A stretch of DNA of 36,475 nucleotides from contig CALMVO010000087.1 of the NCBI GenBank assembly GCA_937873205.1, positions 1 to 36,475 of the forward strand, in the 5' to 3' direction. Both the position numbers and the translations under genes were made by a program. The stretch is from an uncultured Acetobacteraceae bacterium (GTDB taxonomy: Bacteria; Pseudomonadota; Alphaproteobacteria; Acetobacterales; Acetobacteraceae). Below the pieces are notes generated by a model. The model saw nothing but the letters and a program-made list of their open reading frames with translations, made no database searches and was not told the origin of the DNA. This document shows, piece by piece, positions 18,023 through 22,500 of the stretch (positions are counted from its first letter, which is position 1; each line of letters starts with the position of its first letter).

Positions 18023-18434
18023 ATGCGGACGGACCGCGTGCTGCCGCTGCACGGGCTCGCTGCGGGTGCGCGCTCGATGCGGACCCTCGAGCGCGCCCTG
18101 GATGCGGCGGGTACGGGACGCTGAACTTCGCCGATCCGTCCTGCCGGCTGTCGCTGCGCGATCTCGTCGGGCAGGTGCTTGCGAGCCCGGCGTGGAGGCG
18201 GGGCGGCGACGGTGCGCTGCACGTCGCACCTACTCGATGGGCGGGCTGCTCGCCCGTGCCGCCATCAGCCAGGAACGCCCGGCCAATCTCGGTCGCGTCG
18301 TCATGCTGGCACCGCCGAACGGCGGCAGCGAGATCGCCGACCTCCTCGCCGGCTGGGCCTTCCGCCGCCTGTTCGGACCGGCCGGCGCTGAACTCGCGAC
18401 GCGGCAATCTGACGAGCTGACACGGCTGCTGGGG
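18023..18434 (+). pseudogene. Alpha/beta hydrolase, 5' part, frameshifted and cut by a transposon
   Basis: The ATG at 18023 begins MRTDRVLPLHGLAAGARSM, an alpha/beta hydrolase opening with HG oxyanion motif. The frame breaks near 18110 (GGTACGGG, where a G seems lost) and continues as TLNFADPSCRLSLRDLVGQV. It breaks again near 18228 and continues TYSMGGLLARAAISQERP, with the nucleophile Ser in YSMGG, and VVMLAPPNGGSEIADLL. At RLLG the terminal repeat of the transposon follows and supplies TAG. The 3' part resumes at 22224. The family resembles PGAP1/lipase-like hydrolases acting on acyl esters. Two frameshifts independent of the insertion show the gene was already decaying or decayed later. 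Confidence 0.8.
18423..18434. repeat. Target-site duplication, left copy
   Basis: CGGCTGCTGGGG adjoins the left end of the transposon. The right flank begins CGGCTGCCGGGG at 22224-22235, so 11 of 12 bases agree. IS1-type transposases make duplications of about 8-10 bases, so only part of this may be the original duplication. Both copies read in the hydrolase frame as R-L-L/P-G. Confidence 0.65.
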
Positions 18435-18455
18435 TAGTGTCTCAGTTTGAAATTA
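18435..18455. repeat. Terminal inverted repeat, left
   Basis: The sequence is TAGTGTCTCAGTTTGA followed by AATTA. It matches the reverse complement of 22202-22222 at 20 of 21 positions (mismatch at position 17). Confidence 0.9.
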
Positions 18456-18531
18456 TCCACCTGAAAGTCTGATCTTGGCCCTCGCCGTCGATCGGTGCCA
18501 TGCTTAGCGATAGGCATAAGGAGCTGGACGG

Positions 18532-18732
18532 ATGCTACCTAACCCGCCGCGCAAGCCGCATTCAAAAGGCGCCTATGGTGATGGTTGGGCAGCTTGTGGG
18601 CACGGCCAGAAGCGCCATGAGTGGCCAAATTATCTTAGCCATGAGGAGCGGGAAGCTTTCGGCCGCGGTTGGGATGATCGGGCCGAGCGAATTGCAAGCG
18701 GCTATCGAGACGACGCAAAGGCAGGGGTCTGA
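18532..18732 (+). CDS. Rmf/CrpP-fold small protein (transposon cargo)
   Basis: The 66-residue protein has the spacing of the Rmf/CrpP family: GAYGDGWAACGHGQ, a Pro-containing loop (WPNYL), then EEREAFGRGWDDRAE. Rmf makes inactive 100S ribosomes; CrpP-like relatives have other reported roles. The N-terminal basic extension (PPRKPHSK) could contact RNA. AAGGAG lies 8 bases before the ATG. The stop is one base from the next ATG, so the two small genes are coupled. It is the first gene inside the transposon. Family assignment is by short motif and is moderate. Confidence 0.6.
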   Translation: MLPNPPRKPHSKGAYGDGWAACGHGQKRHEWPNYLSHEEREAFGRGWDDRAERIASGYRDDAKAGV

Positions 18733-18733
18733 C

Positions 18734-18976
18734 ATGCCCAAAGGCCCCCGAGGCGAGCACCGCCCCGCCGATTTGATCGGCGCCGCCGTGAAGGTCATGC
18801 GGATTGCGACCGGCGAGGAGCAGGACGAACGAGAGGCGGCGTCGAGTGCGGCGGTGCAGCTGGGGAAGCTGGGCGGCGCGGCGCGAGCGCGGAACCTGAC
18901 GGCGGAGCAGCGGGCGGAGATCGCGCGGAAGGCGGCAGCGGGGCGATGGCGGACACCGGTTGACAAACGGGGGTGA
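18734..18976 (+). CDS. Small basic Ala-rich protein with RPAD and KAAAxRW motifs (transposon cargo)
   Basis: The 80-residue protein begins MPKGPRGEHRPADLIGAAVK, continues VMRIATGEEQDE and ends LGGAARARNLTAEQRAEIARK followed by AAAGRW. This is a very common alphaproteobacterial small protein family (KGPxGxxRPADxIG...KGGxARAxxLTxxxRxEIAxxAAxxRW) of unknown function; the basic C-terminal helices suggest nucleic-acid binding. The ATG at 18734 is chosen from the family opening; the same frame is open from 18500 but that part overlaps the preceding gene. Its presence inside a transposon suggests a captured chromosomal gene. Confidence 0.75.
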   Translation: MPKGPRGEHRPADLIGAAVKVMRIATGEEQDEREAASSAAVQLGKLGGAARARNLTAEQRAEIARKAAAGRWRTPVDKRG

Positions 18977-19014
18977 TTTTCGGGTATGGTTGCCTTGGGT
19001 GCGGAGCAACCAGA

Positions 19015-19689
19015 ATGATCCCGATGGATTCGAGTTTAGCCGAGTGCTTCCTACTAGATCAGTTCCCGGTCAAATACCGTGCCCTCATCCCTGCAGTACT
19101 CCGGAACGCGCGTGCCTCAGCGGCGACACTCGCCAAATCGGAGCCCATTCTTCAAGTTCAGAGCGCGAAAGATAATTTCGGTCGTCTGATTTCCTGGGCT
19201 GCTGACCTTGGAGTTGAGAAACTAATCAATTCCGGCAGGTGGCCTGTGGATTACAGATGGCGGTGGTTTGCCCAACCGACTGGCCGATATCTCGAAGTGC
19301 GGCTTTCGCATTCAGTGATGAGCATCAGTCAAGTTGCTGACCCACAAATACAGCCGAGAGATGTGAAGTTCCGAGAGAATGCTCGTTTAAACAATCAGCG
19401 TTCGTTTGACTTCCCAGGCCTAAATGACAGCCGCTCCTCGACCGGCATCCCGGCTTTTATTCTTATTCATGGTCGGGCGGAACGCTACGAAATGGAGAGT
19501 GAATTTGCTCACATTGGGGTACCGCACCCCGAGCATAAACGCGACTGGATCTACCGGACCAAGAATATCATGGGTTTGGTGCAGACTGTCGAAAGCGAAC
19601 TTCCTCCCGTTGAAGATACTGATGCAGAAGCGGTCCTGACGATTAGAGAAGAGATTGAGAAGTGGCGGCGGGACAATGGCAACGACTAG
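19015..19689 (+). CDS. Unknown 224-residue protein paired with an XRE-ImmA gene (transposon cargo)
   Basis: I do not recognise the family. The protein has an N-terminal helical part (ECFLLDQFPVKYRALIPAVLRNA), a central beta-rich part (YRWRWFAQPTGRYLEVRLSH), FDFPGLNDSRSSTGIPAFILIHG and a C-terminal acidic helix (TIREEIEKWRRDN). The ATG at 19015 has GGAG 8 bases upstream. The stop overlaps the start of the XRE-ImmA gene by 14 bases, so the two are translationally coupled. This resembles toxin-antitoxin or substrate-protease pairs in which an ImmA/IrrE protein controls its neighbour, but no catalytic motif is visible. The DNA is poorer in G+C than the host genes. Confidence 0.75.
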   Translation: MIPMDSSLAECFLLDQFPVKYRALIPAVLRNARASAATLAKSEPILQVQSAKDNFGRLISWAADLGVEKLINSGRWPVDYRWRWFAQPTGRYLEVRLSHSVMSISQVADPQIQPRDVKFRENARLNNQRSFDFPGLNDSRSSTGIPAFILIHGRAERYEMESEFAHIGVPHPEHKRDWIYRTKNIMGLVQTVESELPPVEDTDAEAVLTIREEIEKWRRDNGND

Positions 19690-20872
19690 CAATGTTGTCA
19701 CGTTTCCAGGCGCCGCCCGTGGGGTCACCTCCGGGCGGCGTTTGATTCCGGCTCGGCTTCGTGCTGCCCGAATTGCGAAGCGCCTTAACCAAGCCGAACT
19801 TGGCGCAGCTATTGGAAAAACCCGGCAAATCATATCGGCCTACGAGCAAGGCGAGAAGGCCCCGGAGGGTCTGACGATGGTGGCTATCGCAGAACTGCTT
19901 GCACAGCCGATGGCTTATTTCACGACACCTGAGCCCGAAGGTTTTGGTCCGTTCGGCACGCGTTTTTATAGGGCGATTGGGCCGGAGACGAAGCGACGGA
20001 ACTTGATGTGCGATGTATATGCAGATTGGCAGGTTCAAATCTCAAAGTATGTCGACGGACTTATTAACTATCCCAGTCTGCTTCTACCTTCAATCGCTCC
20101 GGAGCGCGGCGATCAAGGTTACGAAGATGAGGAGATTGAGGCGGCTGCCACGACGTGTCGGAAGATGTGGGGGCTAGGATATGGCCCGCTCTCCAACGTT
20201 TTGTCCTTAGTAGAAAGTAAGGGGGTGATCGCTTCTCGTCTTATCATGGAAGGGGAGAGGGTTGAGGCTTTCTCATTCTGGAACGGGCCGCGTGCATTTA
20301 TCTTCCTGGCGTCCGAAAAGGACTCAGCTGTGCGCGCTCGTTTTGATGTCGCACATGAGATCGGGCATTTGGTCTTGCACCGTGGGATTGGTCCGGAGGA
20401 TATTGCGGACCCCAAGATCCTTAAGAGGATTGAGGCGGAAGCCAATCGCTTCGCTGGAGCGTTGCTGCTACCCCGCGAATCTTTCCCGTCCGAGGTGTTC
20501 ACTACTCGTCTAGATGCTTTTGTCGAGCTGAAGGCTCGTTGGAAAGTGGCTATTCAGGCAATGGTTTATCGTTGCAAAAGTCTTGATGTATTCGATGAAT
20601 ACCAAGTCACAAACTTGTACAAGCAAATCTCCGCAAGAAAGTGGCGAACCAAGGAGCCGCTTGACGATCCAGATCTCCTACCAATAGAACAACCAAAGAT
20701 GCTTCGAAATGCCGTCGAGATGTTGATTTCTGCAGGGCGGAAGAACGCTGCTGATATCCGTGCAGATTTGTCGCTTTCAAGTCAGGTGATTGAGGCGTTG
20801 TGCAATTTAGAGCTGGGCACACTGACCGTGCCGGAGGCAGAGCCAATCGCGATCGGTCCGACTCTAAAGTGA
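19676..20872 (+). CDS. XRE-family HTH / ImmA-IrrE metallopeptidase fusion (transposon cargo)
   Basis: The 398-residue protein has an XRE helix-turn-helix at about residues 25-80 (RLRAARIAKRLNQAELGAAI, then RQIISAYEQGEKAP) and a COG2856/ImmA-IrrE zinc protease domain at about 170-270. The zinc site is HEIGH (227-231) with third ligand E255 in EAEANRFAGALLLP. Such proteins bind operators and cleave repressors or antitoxins after a damage signal. The C-terminal 120 residues are helical and carry no named motif. It overlaps the preceding gene by 14 bases. In a transposon it may control cargo expression or act as the regulator of the preceding unknown protein. Confidence 0.88.
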   Translation: MATTSNVVTFPGAARGVTSGRRLIPARLRAARIAKRLNQAELGAAIGKTRQIISAYEQGEKAPEGLTMVAIAELLAQPMAYFTTPEPEGFGPFGTRFYRAIGPETKRRNLMCDVYADWQVQISKYVDGLINYPSLLLPSIAPERGDQGYEDEEIEAAATTCRKMWGLGYGPLSNVLSLVESKGVIASRLIMEGERVEAFSFWNGPRAFIFLASEKDSAVRARFDVAHEIGHLVLHRGIGPEDIADPKILKRIEAEANRFAGALLLPRESFPSEVFTTRLDAFVELKARWKVAIQAMVYRCKSLDVFDEYQVTNLYKQISARKWRTKEPLDDPDLLPIEQPKMLRNAVEMLISAGRKNAADIRADLSLSSQVIEALCNLELGTLTVPEAEPIAIGPTLK

Positions 20873-20908
20873 AAACAATGCTTACCGGTAAGGAAAAGGA
20901 CCTGCATT

Positions 20909-21802
20909 GTGCCCGGCATGGCCAACAAGCTCCCCCTTGCCAAGCGCGTTCAGATCCTCTCGATGCTCTGCGAGGGCAGCTCCATGCGCTCGATCAGCCG
21001 AGTGGTGGACGTGTCCATCAACACCGTCTCAGCCCTGCTGGTAGACGCCGGCAAGGCCTGCGCCGCGCATCACGACGCCACCGTGCGCGGTGTCCGCTCC
21101 AAGCGCATCCAGGCCGGCGAAATCTGGTCCTTCTGCTACGCCAAGCAGAAGAACGTCGCGACGGCCAAGGCTGCGCCGGAAGATGCCGGCGACGTGTGGA
21201 CCTGGACCGCCCTGGACGCCGACAGCAAGCTCATCGTGTCCTACCTGATTAGTGGTCGGGACGCGGGCTACGCACACGAGTTCATGCAGGACGTGGCGGC
21301 TCGTCTCGCAAACCGCGTGCAGCTCACCACCGACGGCCACAGGGCCTACCTGGACGCCGTCGAGGGGGCGTTCGGGTCCGACATCGACTACTCCATGCTG
21401 ATCAAGCACTACGGGGACGTGGCCGGTGCGGGCCGCTACAGCCCCGGCGTCTGCACCGGCGCCACTCAGGCGCGCGTGGAGGGTCGTCCCGAGAGGGCCC
21501 ACGTCATCACCAGCTACGCCGAGCGGCAGAACCTCACCATGCGGATGTCCATGCGCCGGTTTACCCGGCTGACGAACGCGTTCTTGAAGAAGGCCGAGAA
21601 CCACACCCACATGGTCGCCCTCTACACCACTTGGTATAACTTCGTCCGCCAGCACAAGACGCTGCGGGTCGCCCCGGCGATGGCAGCCGGTCTATCCGAC
21701 CGGCTGTGGAGCATGGAGGACGTGGTGGCGCTGCTCGACGCGGCCGAGGGGCCGGCGAAGAAGCGGGGATCGTACAAGCCCCGAATGGCGATGGAGCGGT
21801 AG
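20909..21802 (+). CDS. IS1-family-like DDE transposase, first catalytic Asp replaced
   Basis: The protein has an N-terminal helix-turn-helix (LAKRVQILSMLCEGSSMRSI followed by SRVVDVSINTV) and an RNase-H-fold core. The second acidic residue is in VQLTTDGHRAYLDAVE and the third in SYAERQNLTMRMSMRRFTRL. In this family the first catalytic Asp lies in a CDEIWSF motif; here the codons give AGEIWSF, so the Asp is Gly. Loss of that residue should abolish strand transfer unless the neighbouring Glu substitutes. Otherwise the gene is full length (297 residues from the GTG at 20909, 294 from the ATG at 20918; AGGA 8 bases ahead of the GTG favours the former). It probably mobilised the surrounding element. 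Confidence 0.85.
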   Translation: MPGMANKLPLAKRVQILSMLCEGSSMRSISRVVDVSINTVSALLVDAGKACAAHHDATVRGVRSKRIQAGEIWSFCYAKQKNVATAKAAPEDAGDVWTWTALDADSKLIVSYLISGRDAGYAHEFMQDVAARLANRVQLTTDGHRAYLDAVEGAFGSDIDYSMLIKHYGDVAGAGRYSPGVCTGATQARVEGRPERAHVITSYAERQNLTMRMSMRRFTRLTNAFLKKAENHTHMVALYTTWYNFVRQHKTLRVAPAMAAGLSDRLWSMEDVVALLDAAEGPAKKRGSYKPRMAMER

Positions 21803-21805
21803 GTG

Positions 21806-22192
21806 ATGACGGTTCTGGTGCAAGGAGTCCCTTTAAAAAGGGGTAATATTGTTTCGGTCGATTTGGATGGCGCCACGGGCGTTGAGATGCAGAACGGACA
21901 GGACTCAGGCGTTCGCTCGTGCATTATAGTTCAAAATGATAAAGGCAATGCATTTTCGCCAACCACAATAATAGTTCCGCTATCGGACGCCGAGAAGAAT
22001 CAGCGTAGTTTGTCAATTCTTGTTCCATTGCGCTCAGACGAGCTTGGCCCAGGCGGAAAAGACTCAGTTGCTCACTGTGAACAGGTTCGGACTGTTGACA
22101 TAGCCGTACGTATCAAGCGTGTCGTTGGTCACCTTGGGCCAAATGCAATGGATCGGATTGATAAAGCGCTCGCAATCAGCATCGGCCGCTGA
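21806..22192 (+). CDS. PemK/MazF-family toxin-like protein (transposon cargo)
   Basis: The 128-residue protein matches the PemK/MazF endoribonuclease fold. The first strand and loop are LKRGNIVSVDLDGATGVEM with the expected RG, then SCIIVQNDKGNAFSPTTIIVPLS, VAHCEQVRTVDIAVRI and HLGPNAMDRIDKAL. MazF toxins cut mRNA at short motifs. It begins 3 bases after the transposase stop (GGAG 9 bases ahead of the ATG) and ends 9 bases before the right terminal repeat. No small antitoxin gene of the usual kind adjoins it; the only DNA-binding candidates are the XRE-ImmA protein and the small basic protein upstream. It may stabilise the element by addiction, or be silenced. Confidence 0.82.
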   Translation: MTVLVQGVPLKRGNIVSVDLDGATGVEMQNGQDSGVRSCIIVQNDKGNAFSPTTIIVPLSDAEKNQRSLSILVPLRSDELGPGGKDSVAHCEQVRTVDIAVRIKRVVGHLGPNAMDRIDKALAISIGR

Positions 22193-22201
22193 ACGTTGCC
22201 T

Positions 22202-22222
22202 TAATCTCAAACTGAGACACTA
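22202..22222. repeat. Terminal inverted repeat, right
   Basis: The reverse complement reads TAGTGTCTCAGTTTGA followed by GATTA, matching the left end at 20 of 21 positions. The hydrolase coding sequence resumes directly after it. Confidence 0.9.
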
Positions 22223-22223
22223 C

Positions 22224-22235
22224 CGGCTGCCGGGG
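22224..22235. repeat. Target-site duplication, right copy
   Basis: CGGCTGCCGGGG matches the left flank CGGCTGCTGGGG (18423-18434) at 11 of 12 positions. It marks the insertion point in the hydrolase gene. Confidence 0.65.
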
Positions 22236-22500
22236 GAGGTGGACTATCCTCCCGGCATCGTCGCCGGCGACCGGTTCTTGGACCCGATGGGTTTGCAGAT
22301 GATCCCGGGACGCAATGACGGACGCGTCTCGGTCGAGCGGACCCGGCTCGCAGGCATGGCGGACCACCTCACGATCCATGCCACGCATCACGGCATGGTC
22401 CGCAACCGCCACGCCATCGGCCACGTCCTTGCGCTTCCTTCGGGACGGGCATTTCAATCGGCGGGACGCGGCCCCGGACGGCGTCAGAACCCGAGGATGA
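22224..22500 (+). pseudogene. Alpha/beta hydrolase, 3' part beyond the transposon
   Basis: The frame after the right terminal repeat reads RLPGEVDYPPGIVAGDRFLD, then MIPGRNDGRVSVERTRL and MADHLTIHATHHGMVRN. This includes the Asp (NDGRV) and the catalytic His region (THHGM) of the hydrolase begun at 18023. The frame breaks at about 22432 and continues as FLRDGHF, the usual C-terminal motif, to a stop at 22500. Joining both parts at the duplicated CGGCTGC restores one continuous hydrolase of ordinary length. Confidence 0.78.

Follow-up and report, generated by a model that had tools for sequence, protein, structure and literature searches.

A cargo-bearing IS1-like transposon within a hydrolase gene

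The contig CALMVO010000087.1 of an uncultured Acetobacteraceae bacterium, analyzed here over 36,475 nucleotides (the window), was found to carry a transposon of 3,792 bp (positions 18433-22224) that sits within a hydrolase gene. The unit holds six open reading frames (ORFs), all on the plus strand: one encodes an IS1-like transposase, and the other five include genes for a small basic protein (SBP), a pair related to the RosmerTA toxin-antitoxin system and a PemK-like toxin (Table 1). Terminal inverted repeats bound the unit and a target-site duplication flanks it; the first 19 bases of the left repeat recur, exactly or nearly so, at the ends of related units. An initial annotation of the window had proposed a cargo-bearing insertion sequence (IS)-type unit with defined ends in a hydrolase gene, and this was upheld by the ends, the duplication, an empty site and the related units described below. 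Its details were revised in that (i) the unit starts two bases earlier and ends one base later than the 18435..22223 first given; (ii) the near-perfect terminal repeats extend from 20/21 to 22/23 matching bases; and (iii) the duplication, correctly seen as imperfect, is best read as 9 bp with 8/9 matching, the original 12-mer having included repeat bases.

TABLE 1 Features of the transposon and its insertion site, in window coordinates
Feature	Position	Strand	Remarks
Hydrolase gene, part left of insertion	18240..18434	+	Matches the uninterrupted gene of relatives
Target-site duplication, left copy, GGCTGCTGG	18424..18432	.	8/9 versus right copy
Terminal inverted repeat, left	18433..18455	+	23 nt, 22/23 matching
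66-aa ORF	18532..18732	+	No Pfam or NCBIfam match at E<=1
SBP, 80 aa, family core gene	18734..18976	+	Present in 60/60 complete units
RmrT-like RosmerTA toxin gene	18973..19689	+	PADLOC RmrT 1.2e-85, residues 22-237; start possibly ATG 19015
RmrA-like XRE-ImmA protease antitoxin of RosmerTA	19676..20872	+	PADLOC RmrA 1.4e-170; Peptidase_M78 1.2e-19, HTH_3 3.4e-10
IS1-like DDE transposase, 297 aa	20909..21802	+	Open frame, glycine at residue 70; NF033558 49.7 bits (cut-off 100)
PemK/MazF-like toxin gene, right slot	21803..22192	+	PF02452 1.2e-21
Terminal inverted repeat, right	22202..22224	-	23 nt, 22/23 versus left arm
Target-site duplication, right copy, GGCTGCCGG	22225..22233	.	8/9 versus GGCTGCTGG
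Hydrolase gene, part right of insertion	22227..22463	+	Contiguous match to the same relatives

The left and right flanks of the insertion were searched separately for an empty site. The left hydrolase part was matched in 10 of the 60 genomes searched (window genome included), and in two genomes of the same genus, G001 (locus L111) and G002 (locus L114), the hydrolase gene was found to be uninterrupted. In L111, which is 68% identical over the left hydrolase piece, the left-flank match ends at 1698 and the right-flank match begins at 1690, and the resulting 9-nt overlap (1690-1698), in the same frame, is the expectation if this relative keeps a single copy of the duplicated target. The initial annotation had called for such a relative with an intact hydrolase and had stated that the hydrolase frame is restored across the unit, and both points held. 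Upstream of 18240 the hydrolase gene may have an additional frame problem.

The transposase family is distantly of IS1 type

When compared with NCBIfam, the window transposase scored 49.7 bits against IS1, 26.6 against IS6 and 17.5 against IS1595 (cut-off 75); an assignment to IS1595 was rejected on these scores. None of 40 relatives gave an over-cut-off match to NCBIfam transpos_IS1. A family profile of 53 rows (of 60 units, six were omitted for stops or a broken frame and one as a duplicate) was aligned by hhalign with Escherichia coli InsB at an E-value of 3e-7 (probability 93%), with positions 70, 142 and 205 falling on the D, D, E motifs of InsB, which we take to be the catalytic residues of IS1. 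D142 was present in all 53 rows, and E205 and D70 in 52 each. As judged from these alignments, the transposase family is distantly of IS1 type.

The ends of IS1 elements follow the consensus GGnnnTG, and IS1 duplications measure about 8-10 bp. The family ends, GGTAGTG, fit this consensus, the family duplications of 8-9 bp lie within the IS1 range, and the predicted catalytic positions are in register with InsB. The family differs from IS1 by its single 297-aa ORF with an N-terminal region of its own that resembles a helix-turn-helix (HTH; weak HTH_38 match), and in that each of the 60 complete units has SBP and carries cargo. The window transposase is one continuous ORF, without the classical insA/insB frameshift arrangement of IS1; single-ORF subgroups do exist in the IS1 family. 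IS1-type elements of up to several kb are placed by ISfinder in the ISMhu11 subgroup, on which no paper was found in the literature searched.

Related units have the same ends, an exact duplication and cargo

Relatives were taken from a scan of one genome per species; the best 80 of 109 confirmed matches, together with the window, gave 81 loci, and for each locus the end pair giving the best duplication was used. Complete units, with both ends and a duplication, were found at 60 of the 81 loci, 59 of them with an exact 8-bp duplication, while random re-pairing of the flanks yielded no exact duplication match in 1000 shuffles. The recurrence of the same type of end with a duplication is thus not due to chance. 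The complete units range from 1,862 to 4,866 bp (median ~3,020 bp). As the transposase gene accounts for only ~0.9 kb, even the shortest is no bare IS, and all 60 carry cargo; passenger genes, which the initial annotation regarded as unusual for IS1-type elements, are the rule in this branch of the family. Of the 21 loci that gave no end pair in this census, L104 yielded a pair in a freer search, flanked by an exact 8-bp duplication; L031, L062 and L095 have both ends with no duplication; and in the remaining 17, which show motifs of a single orientation, the contig breaks off no more than 1.6 kb from the transposase in one or both directions.

According to the source records, complete units occur in Alpha-, Beta- and Gammaproteobacteria, relatives of Nitrospira, Planctomycetes, Acidobacteria, Dehalococcoidia, Zixibacteria and Actinobacteria; most of these records are metagenome bins, so that individual placements may be wrong. 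Further units with these ends, as the initial annotation had asked for, were also found among 32 additional whole-genome stretches, mostly selected around transposase or SBP matches: 19 hold a unit with a duplication (17 exact over 8 bp and two with 7/8), the transposase being present in 18 and SBP in all 19. Three of four plasmid loci are likewise complete units with an exact 8-bp duplication, and all four have SBP. In Sphingopyxis sp. PET50, a 3,316-bp unit occurs twice (L041 and L042) with no mismatches between the copies, differing duplications and unrelated flanks (identities 0.265 and 0.245). Mobility of the family is thus well supported.

Several smaller observations concern dispersed parts of the family. 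A stretch of 937 bp (L142:670-1606) appears to be a non-autonomous derivative, with a perfect 8-bp duplication, an intact SBP gene, a small Zn-ribbon-like ORF and, by eye, an apparent transposase fragment fused behind SBP. The window genome has five end motifs, consisting of the two ends of the unit and three lone ones on contigs C3 (L143, at 2672 and 2927) and C53 (L144, at 2003); beside one of these lone ends lies a 71-aa Zn-ribbon-like ORF that is 59% identical over 56 aa to that of L142. Among phages, one distant match was found, an unannotated relative of the transposase (32% identical) in the 321-kb genome of Brevundimonas phage vB_BpoS-Gurke, at 174791-175669 (L170).

SBP is common to all complete units of the family

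A profile search detected SBP in all 60 complete units, always on the transposase strand, the match being weak in L105 (E-value 5e-4) and part of a longer protein in L098; outside the units, no match was found in 840,600 bases. SBP is thus a core gene. The initial annotation had counted five cargo genes and one transposase; the ORF count stands, with SBP removed from the cargo. Among the 21 loci lacking an end pair, SBP was present in 12; in each of the nine others, the sequence to the left of the transposase is no longer than 1,522 bp. Since the profile was built partly from the same units, the outside-unit count and searches of whole genomes are fairer tests; counts from the latter are lower bounds, as only part of the first-look candidates was scored in some genomes. 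Within 289 genomes of the class (window included), all 22 strong SBP matches were near a transposase match or a terminal-repeat motif: 17 were upstream of a transposase on the same strand, one was on the opposite strand in the same unit (L149), and four were on a contig without a transposase, each with a terminal-repeat motif within ~0.5 kb. Five weaker partial matches were detected in the same genomes (E-values 5e-11 to 8e-9), three near a transposase and two not. The 60 relatives gave 10 full-length matches, eight beside a transposase and the other two in L142, which has no intact transposase, and in L156, where SBP lies between two end motifs with no transposase or duplication; they also gave six partial matches, one in L156 and five elsewhere.

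We infer a role for SBP in carrying out or controlling transposition. One plasmid record labels it 'histone H1'. In a Mycobacterium unit (L098:8470-8859), the two conserved halves of SBP appear to be separated by an additional segment that looks HicB-like by eye, and L105 may be alike.

Cargo is exchanged between closely related units

Comparison of cargo between copies, another check raised by the initial annotation, revealed clear differences. The transposases of L051 and L054 are 97% identical, and at a blastn E-value of 1e-3 the two units share only nt 1-177, which comprise the end and the first half of SBP, and the transposase gene from about start to stop; both cargo slots differ. The same pattern was observed for L049 and L051, while L049 and L054 (transposase 96%) have SBP and part of the middle slot in common and differ in the right slot. 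Two further pairs with 94% identical transposases behave similarly: L038 and L043 share the left end, SBP and transposase, and L044 and L052 have the ends in common along with the transposase and the first half of SBP, with L052 having an additional ORF between the end and SBP. Thus, cargo can be unrelated even where the transposases of two units are 94-97% identical, the breakpoints between close relatives lie in the SBP gene and next to the transposase, and a modular organization of the cargo is well supported.

The cargo often includes defense and toxin-antitoxin genes

In the window unit, the pair that the initial annotation had recorded as an 'unknown' plus an XRE-ImmA protein was recovered as such, with the 'unknown' matching RmrT. 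The RmrA translation contains the HEIGH motif, and given an RmrA start at ATG 19676, the two genes overlap by 14 bp. Two sequence features of RosmerTA are present, namely an RmrA with an ImmA-type protease and an HTH, and an adjacent gene of the RmrT toxin family. In RosmerTA systems, as described in the available text of PMC10440598, the antitoxin is an ImmA-type protease, its toxin partners vary, and the systems confer protection against phage; one studied toxin depolarizes the membrane. The window pair resembles these in having the RmrT-family gene upstream of RmrA, both matched by PADLOC, and differs in sitting inside an IS1-like unit; the window RmrT may act on a target other than the membrane. 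The earlier view of a stabilization or defense cargo was therefore right in kind, and the PemK-like toxin was likewise confirmed. Its gene begins directly after the transposase stop, and a recognized antitoxin was not seen next to it. In contrast, the ribosome-factor-like label given to the 66-aa ORF was discarded in the absence of any Pfam or NCBIfam match at E<=1; among 79 units searched by tblastn, this ORF was matched in the window alone.

The selection of cargo ORFs in the complete units was mechanical and probably let in some spurious antisense ORFs. The scan covered 126 of 127 listed ORFs (a 158-aa window ORF containing SBP was omitted), L042 being left out as a duplicate. Among the PADLOC matches listed, which represent 25 of 266 models, RmrA (up to 9), PD-Lambda-2_B (8) and HEC-09 (6) were found; PADLOC holds many RmrA models, which inflates the total of 266. 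By comparison, a control of 126 ORFs drawn at random from 287 flanking ORFs matched 13 models with one member each. Among the Pfam matches listed (25 of 51 families) were NYN (9), P63C (9), nSTAND/AAA (4), PemK (2), methylases and specificity domains. Individual units carry a HigB-like/XRE pair (L044), an AAA_21 protein (L047), a methylase-HNH (L056), Panacea (L059), Fic (L067), NYN (L073) and, below threshold, AbiEii (L069); SDH protease and HARE-HTH proteins were also found, and the matches to type IIG restriction probably belong to L070 and L078. About 28 of the 60 units have a named defense or toxin-antitoxin family, or 34 when nSTAND, AAA_21, lone NYN and AbiEii are counted, in a tally that extends the single scans to blastp clusters by inference and counts L041/L042 twice. 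Much of the cargo is without a recognized role, as 24 of 40 singly scanned ORFs had no Pfam match at 0.01.

Two groups of cargo proteins recur. The right slots of L037, L039, L054 and L066 encode a protein of ~240 aa with no Pfam or PADLOC match (L037 tested), adjoined in three of the four by an ORF of 78-91 aa on the opposite strand. P63C-domain proteins (e.g., L026:8931-9974) are among the commonest cargo; three were tested, and none matched in PADLOC.

Interpretation of the family and of the window copy

We consider it very likely that the transposon of the window is structurally complete and belongs to an IS1-like family with constant ends, transposase and SBP and with exchangeable cargo, which in this copy is RosmerTA. 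This reading draws on the ends, the duplication, the empty site, a relative doubled as a whole unit, the constancy of SBP and the exchange of cargo, all of which were observed directly. The constant parts are the terminal repeats, one DDE transposase and SBP, the last of which is usually found directly inward of the left end. Insertion of the whole unit, with a duplication of 8 bp (9 bp in the window), presumably results from recognition of the repeats by the family transposase. SBP may be an accessory or control protein of transposition, for which InsA of IS1 offers a comparison, or a regulator of the cargo. Up to three cargo slots are present (left end to SBP, SBP to transposase, and transposase to right end), each replaced independently of the others and often filled with short defense or toxin-antitoxin genes. 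The middle slot of the window unit is occupied by RosmerTA, whose RmrA, with its ImmA-type protease and HTH, is expected to restrain RmrT until phage infection; infection would release RmrT, and the infected cell would stop growing. The PemK-like toxin gene occupies the right slot.

Several observations weigh against this reading. For the window copy, (i) residue 70 of the transposase is glycine where D is found in all 52 other rows, so that with D142 and E205 retained the full DDE triad is not present; (ii) the transposase falls under the transpos_IS1 cut-off (49.7 versus 100 bits); (iii) it gave the only transposase match in its genome and is thus a single copy; (iv) the duplication is 9 bp with one mismatch, compared with the exact 8 bp of other units; and (v) the RmrA-like proteins of other units share only 25-28% identity with the window RmrA, indicating that RosmerTA has not been inherited as a block by the family. 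For the family, 26 of the 60 units (32 by the stricter count) are without a recognized defense gene; four loci, L149, L154, L095 and L074, have SBP on the opposite strand, and in L074 it lies to the right of the transposase; and a comparison of SBP with solved structures gave nothing meaningful (best E-value 0.35). With a predicted catalytic aspartate missing, the window copy may no longer move by itself. Though its frame is open, the transposase is probably catalytically inactive, a prediction that agrees with the single copy and the imperfect duplication, and the window copy is probably immobile now unless helped in trans.

A different view of the cargo is that its toxin-antitoxin genes serve the transposon, acting as an addiction module by which cells that lose the element are penalized, with any anti-phage effect being secondary. 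The PemK, HigB/HigA-like (L044), Fic (L067) and Panacea (L059) cargo would suit this explanation, and a proposal in the available text of PMC7157771 holds that toxin-antitoxin pairs help Tn3-family transposons to invade stably during transposition. However, much of the defense cargo has no obvious addiction logic (NYN/HEC-09, PD-Lambda-2_B, DNA methylase-HNH and type IIG restriction), and the window PemK gene is without a recognized antitoxin. We regard this explanation as a serious contender that is nonetheless somewhat less probable than its negation.

The role of SBP was approached by comparing its two halves in 57 of the 60 units (L042, L098 and L105 dropped; the N-terminal half of L037 poorly aligned). 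The N-terminal half tracks the transposase (r 0.63), while the C-terminal half hardly does (r 0.19). When the transposase effect was removed, both halves were found to be more alike within a cargo class (permutations reaching the observed value: 20/5000 for the N-terminal and 0/5000 for the C-terminal half), with cargo classes assigned by the analyst for 31 units and with non-independent pairs. This pattern fits putative joints inside the SBP gene. It may also suggest that SBP is not a transposition factor but acts together with the cargo, as a regulator or an antitoxin, and is constant since every cargo needs it; the behavior of the C-terminal half and the presence of SBP-like C-terminal motifs in other ORFs point this way. 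Yet the cargo ORFs are of unrelated kinds and often on the opposite strand, the N-terminal half tracks the transposase and likewise shows a cargo effect, and the 937-bp derivative retains SBP without an intact transposase, and so we find this explanation rather unlikely. About equally doubtful is a bolder version of the preferred transposon reading, in which SBP would be the second dedicated protein of a cassette-exchange transposon, with an N-terminal half that serves the transposase and the ends and a C-terminal half that, together with the gene, marks a splice joint for defense cassettes; the family would then shuttle single-operon immune modules between phyla.

A one-off capture, in which an ordinary IS1-like element picked up genes here by chance, has in its favor that the particular cargo combination of the window occurs in no other unit of the 79 searched, but it is contradicted by the complete units, all of which are more than a bare IS (1,862 bp at the shortest, with a median of ~3,020 bp), and is highly improbable. 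Coincidental repeats in a hydrolase gene broken by a different rearrangement, for which the imperfect duplication could speak, have a still smaller, practically negligible probability in view of the 22/23 repeats, the 9-nt empty-site overlap and the same ends with duplications in 59 relatives.

Relationship to known elements and significance

IS1595-family elements generate 8-bp duplications, and the window transposase scores lower against IS1595 (17.5 bits) than against IS1 (49.7). IS-sized elements with passenger genes, to which the present units bear a likeness, are already in print as 'transporter IS' (available text of PMC3129680, which cites Siguier 2009). For Tn3-family transposons, the exchange of small toxin-antitoxin modules between related elements has been described and placed at the res site in the accessible part of PMC7157771. 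The units studied here are alike in exchanging toxin-antitoxin modules and differ in having breakpoints within SBP and adjacent to the transposase, not at res; a resolvase was not among the 25 of 51 Pfam families listed for the cargo. Tn7 has multi-protein machinery and a larger size. In the available text of PMC8649781, nearly all Tn7-like transposons carry cargo that is enriched in defense; near-universal, defense-rich cargo is common to both groups, whereas the family described here has one transposase and one small protein in 2-5 kb. With these precedents for passenger genes, toxin-antitoxin pairs and defense cargo, the family is not categorically new. No paper describing it was among the matches listed in the open literature, ISfinder and most subscription journals being beyond that scope.

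Because the constant ends delimit the cargo exactly, the P63C-domain, ~240-aa right-slot and HARE-HTH proteins are candidate new defense genes. Large islands, prophages and Tn7-type transposons are regarded as the carriers by which defense genes spread. An element of 2-5 kb with exact ends, one transposase, a constant SBP and changing defense or toxin-antitoxin cargo would be a simple, testable vehicle for their spread.

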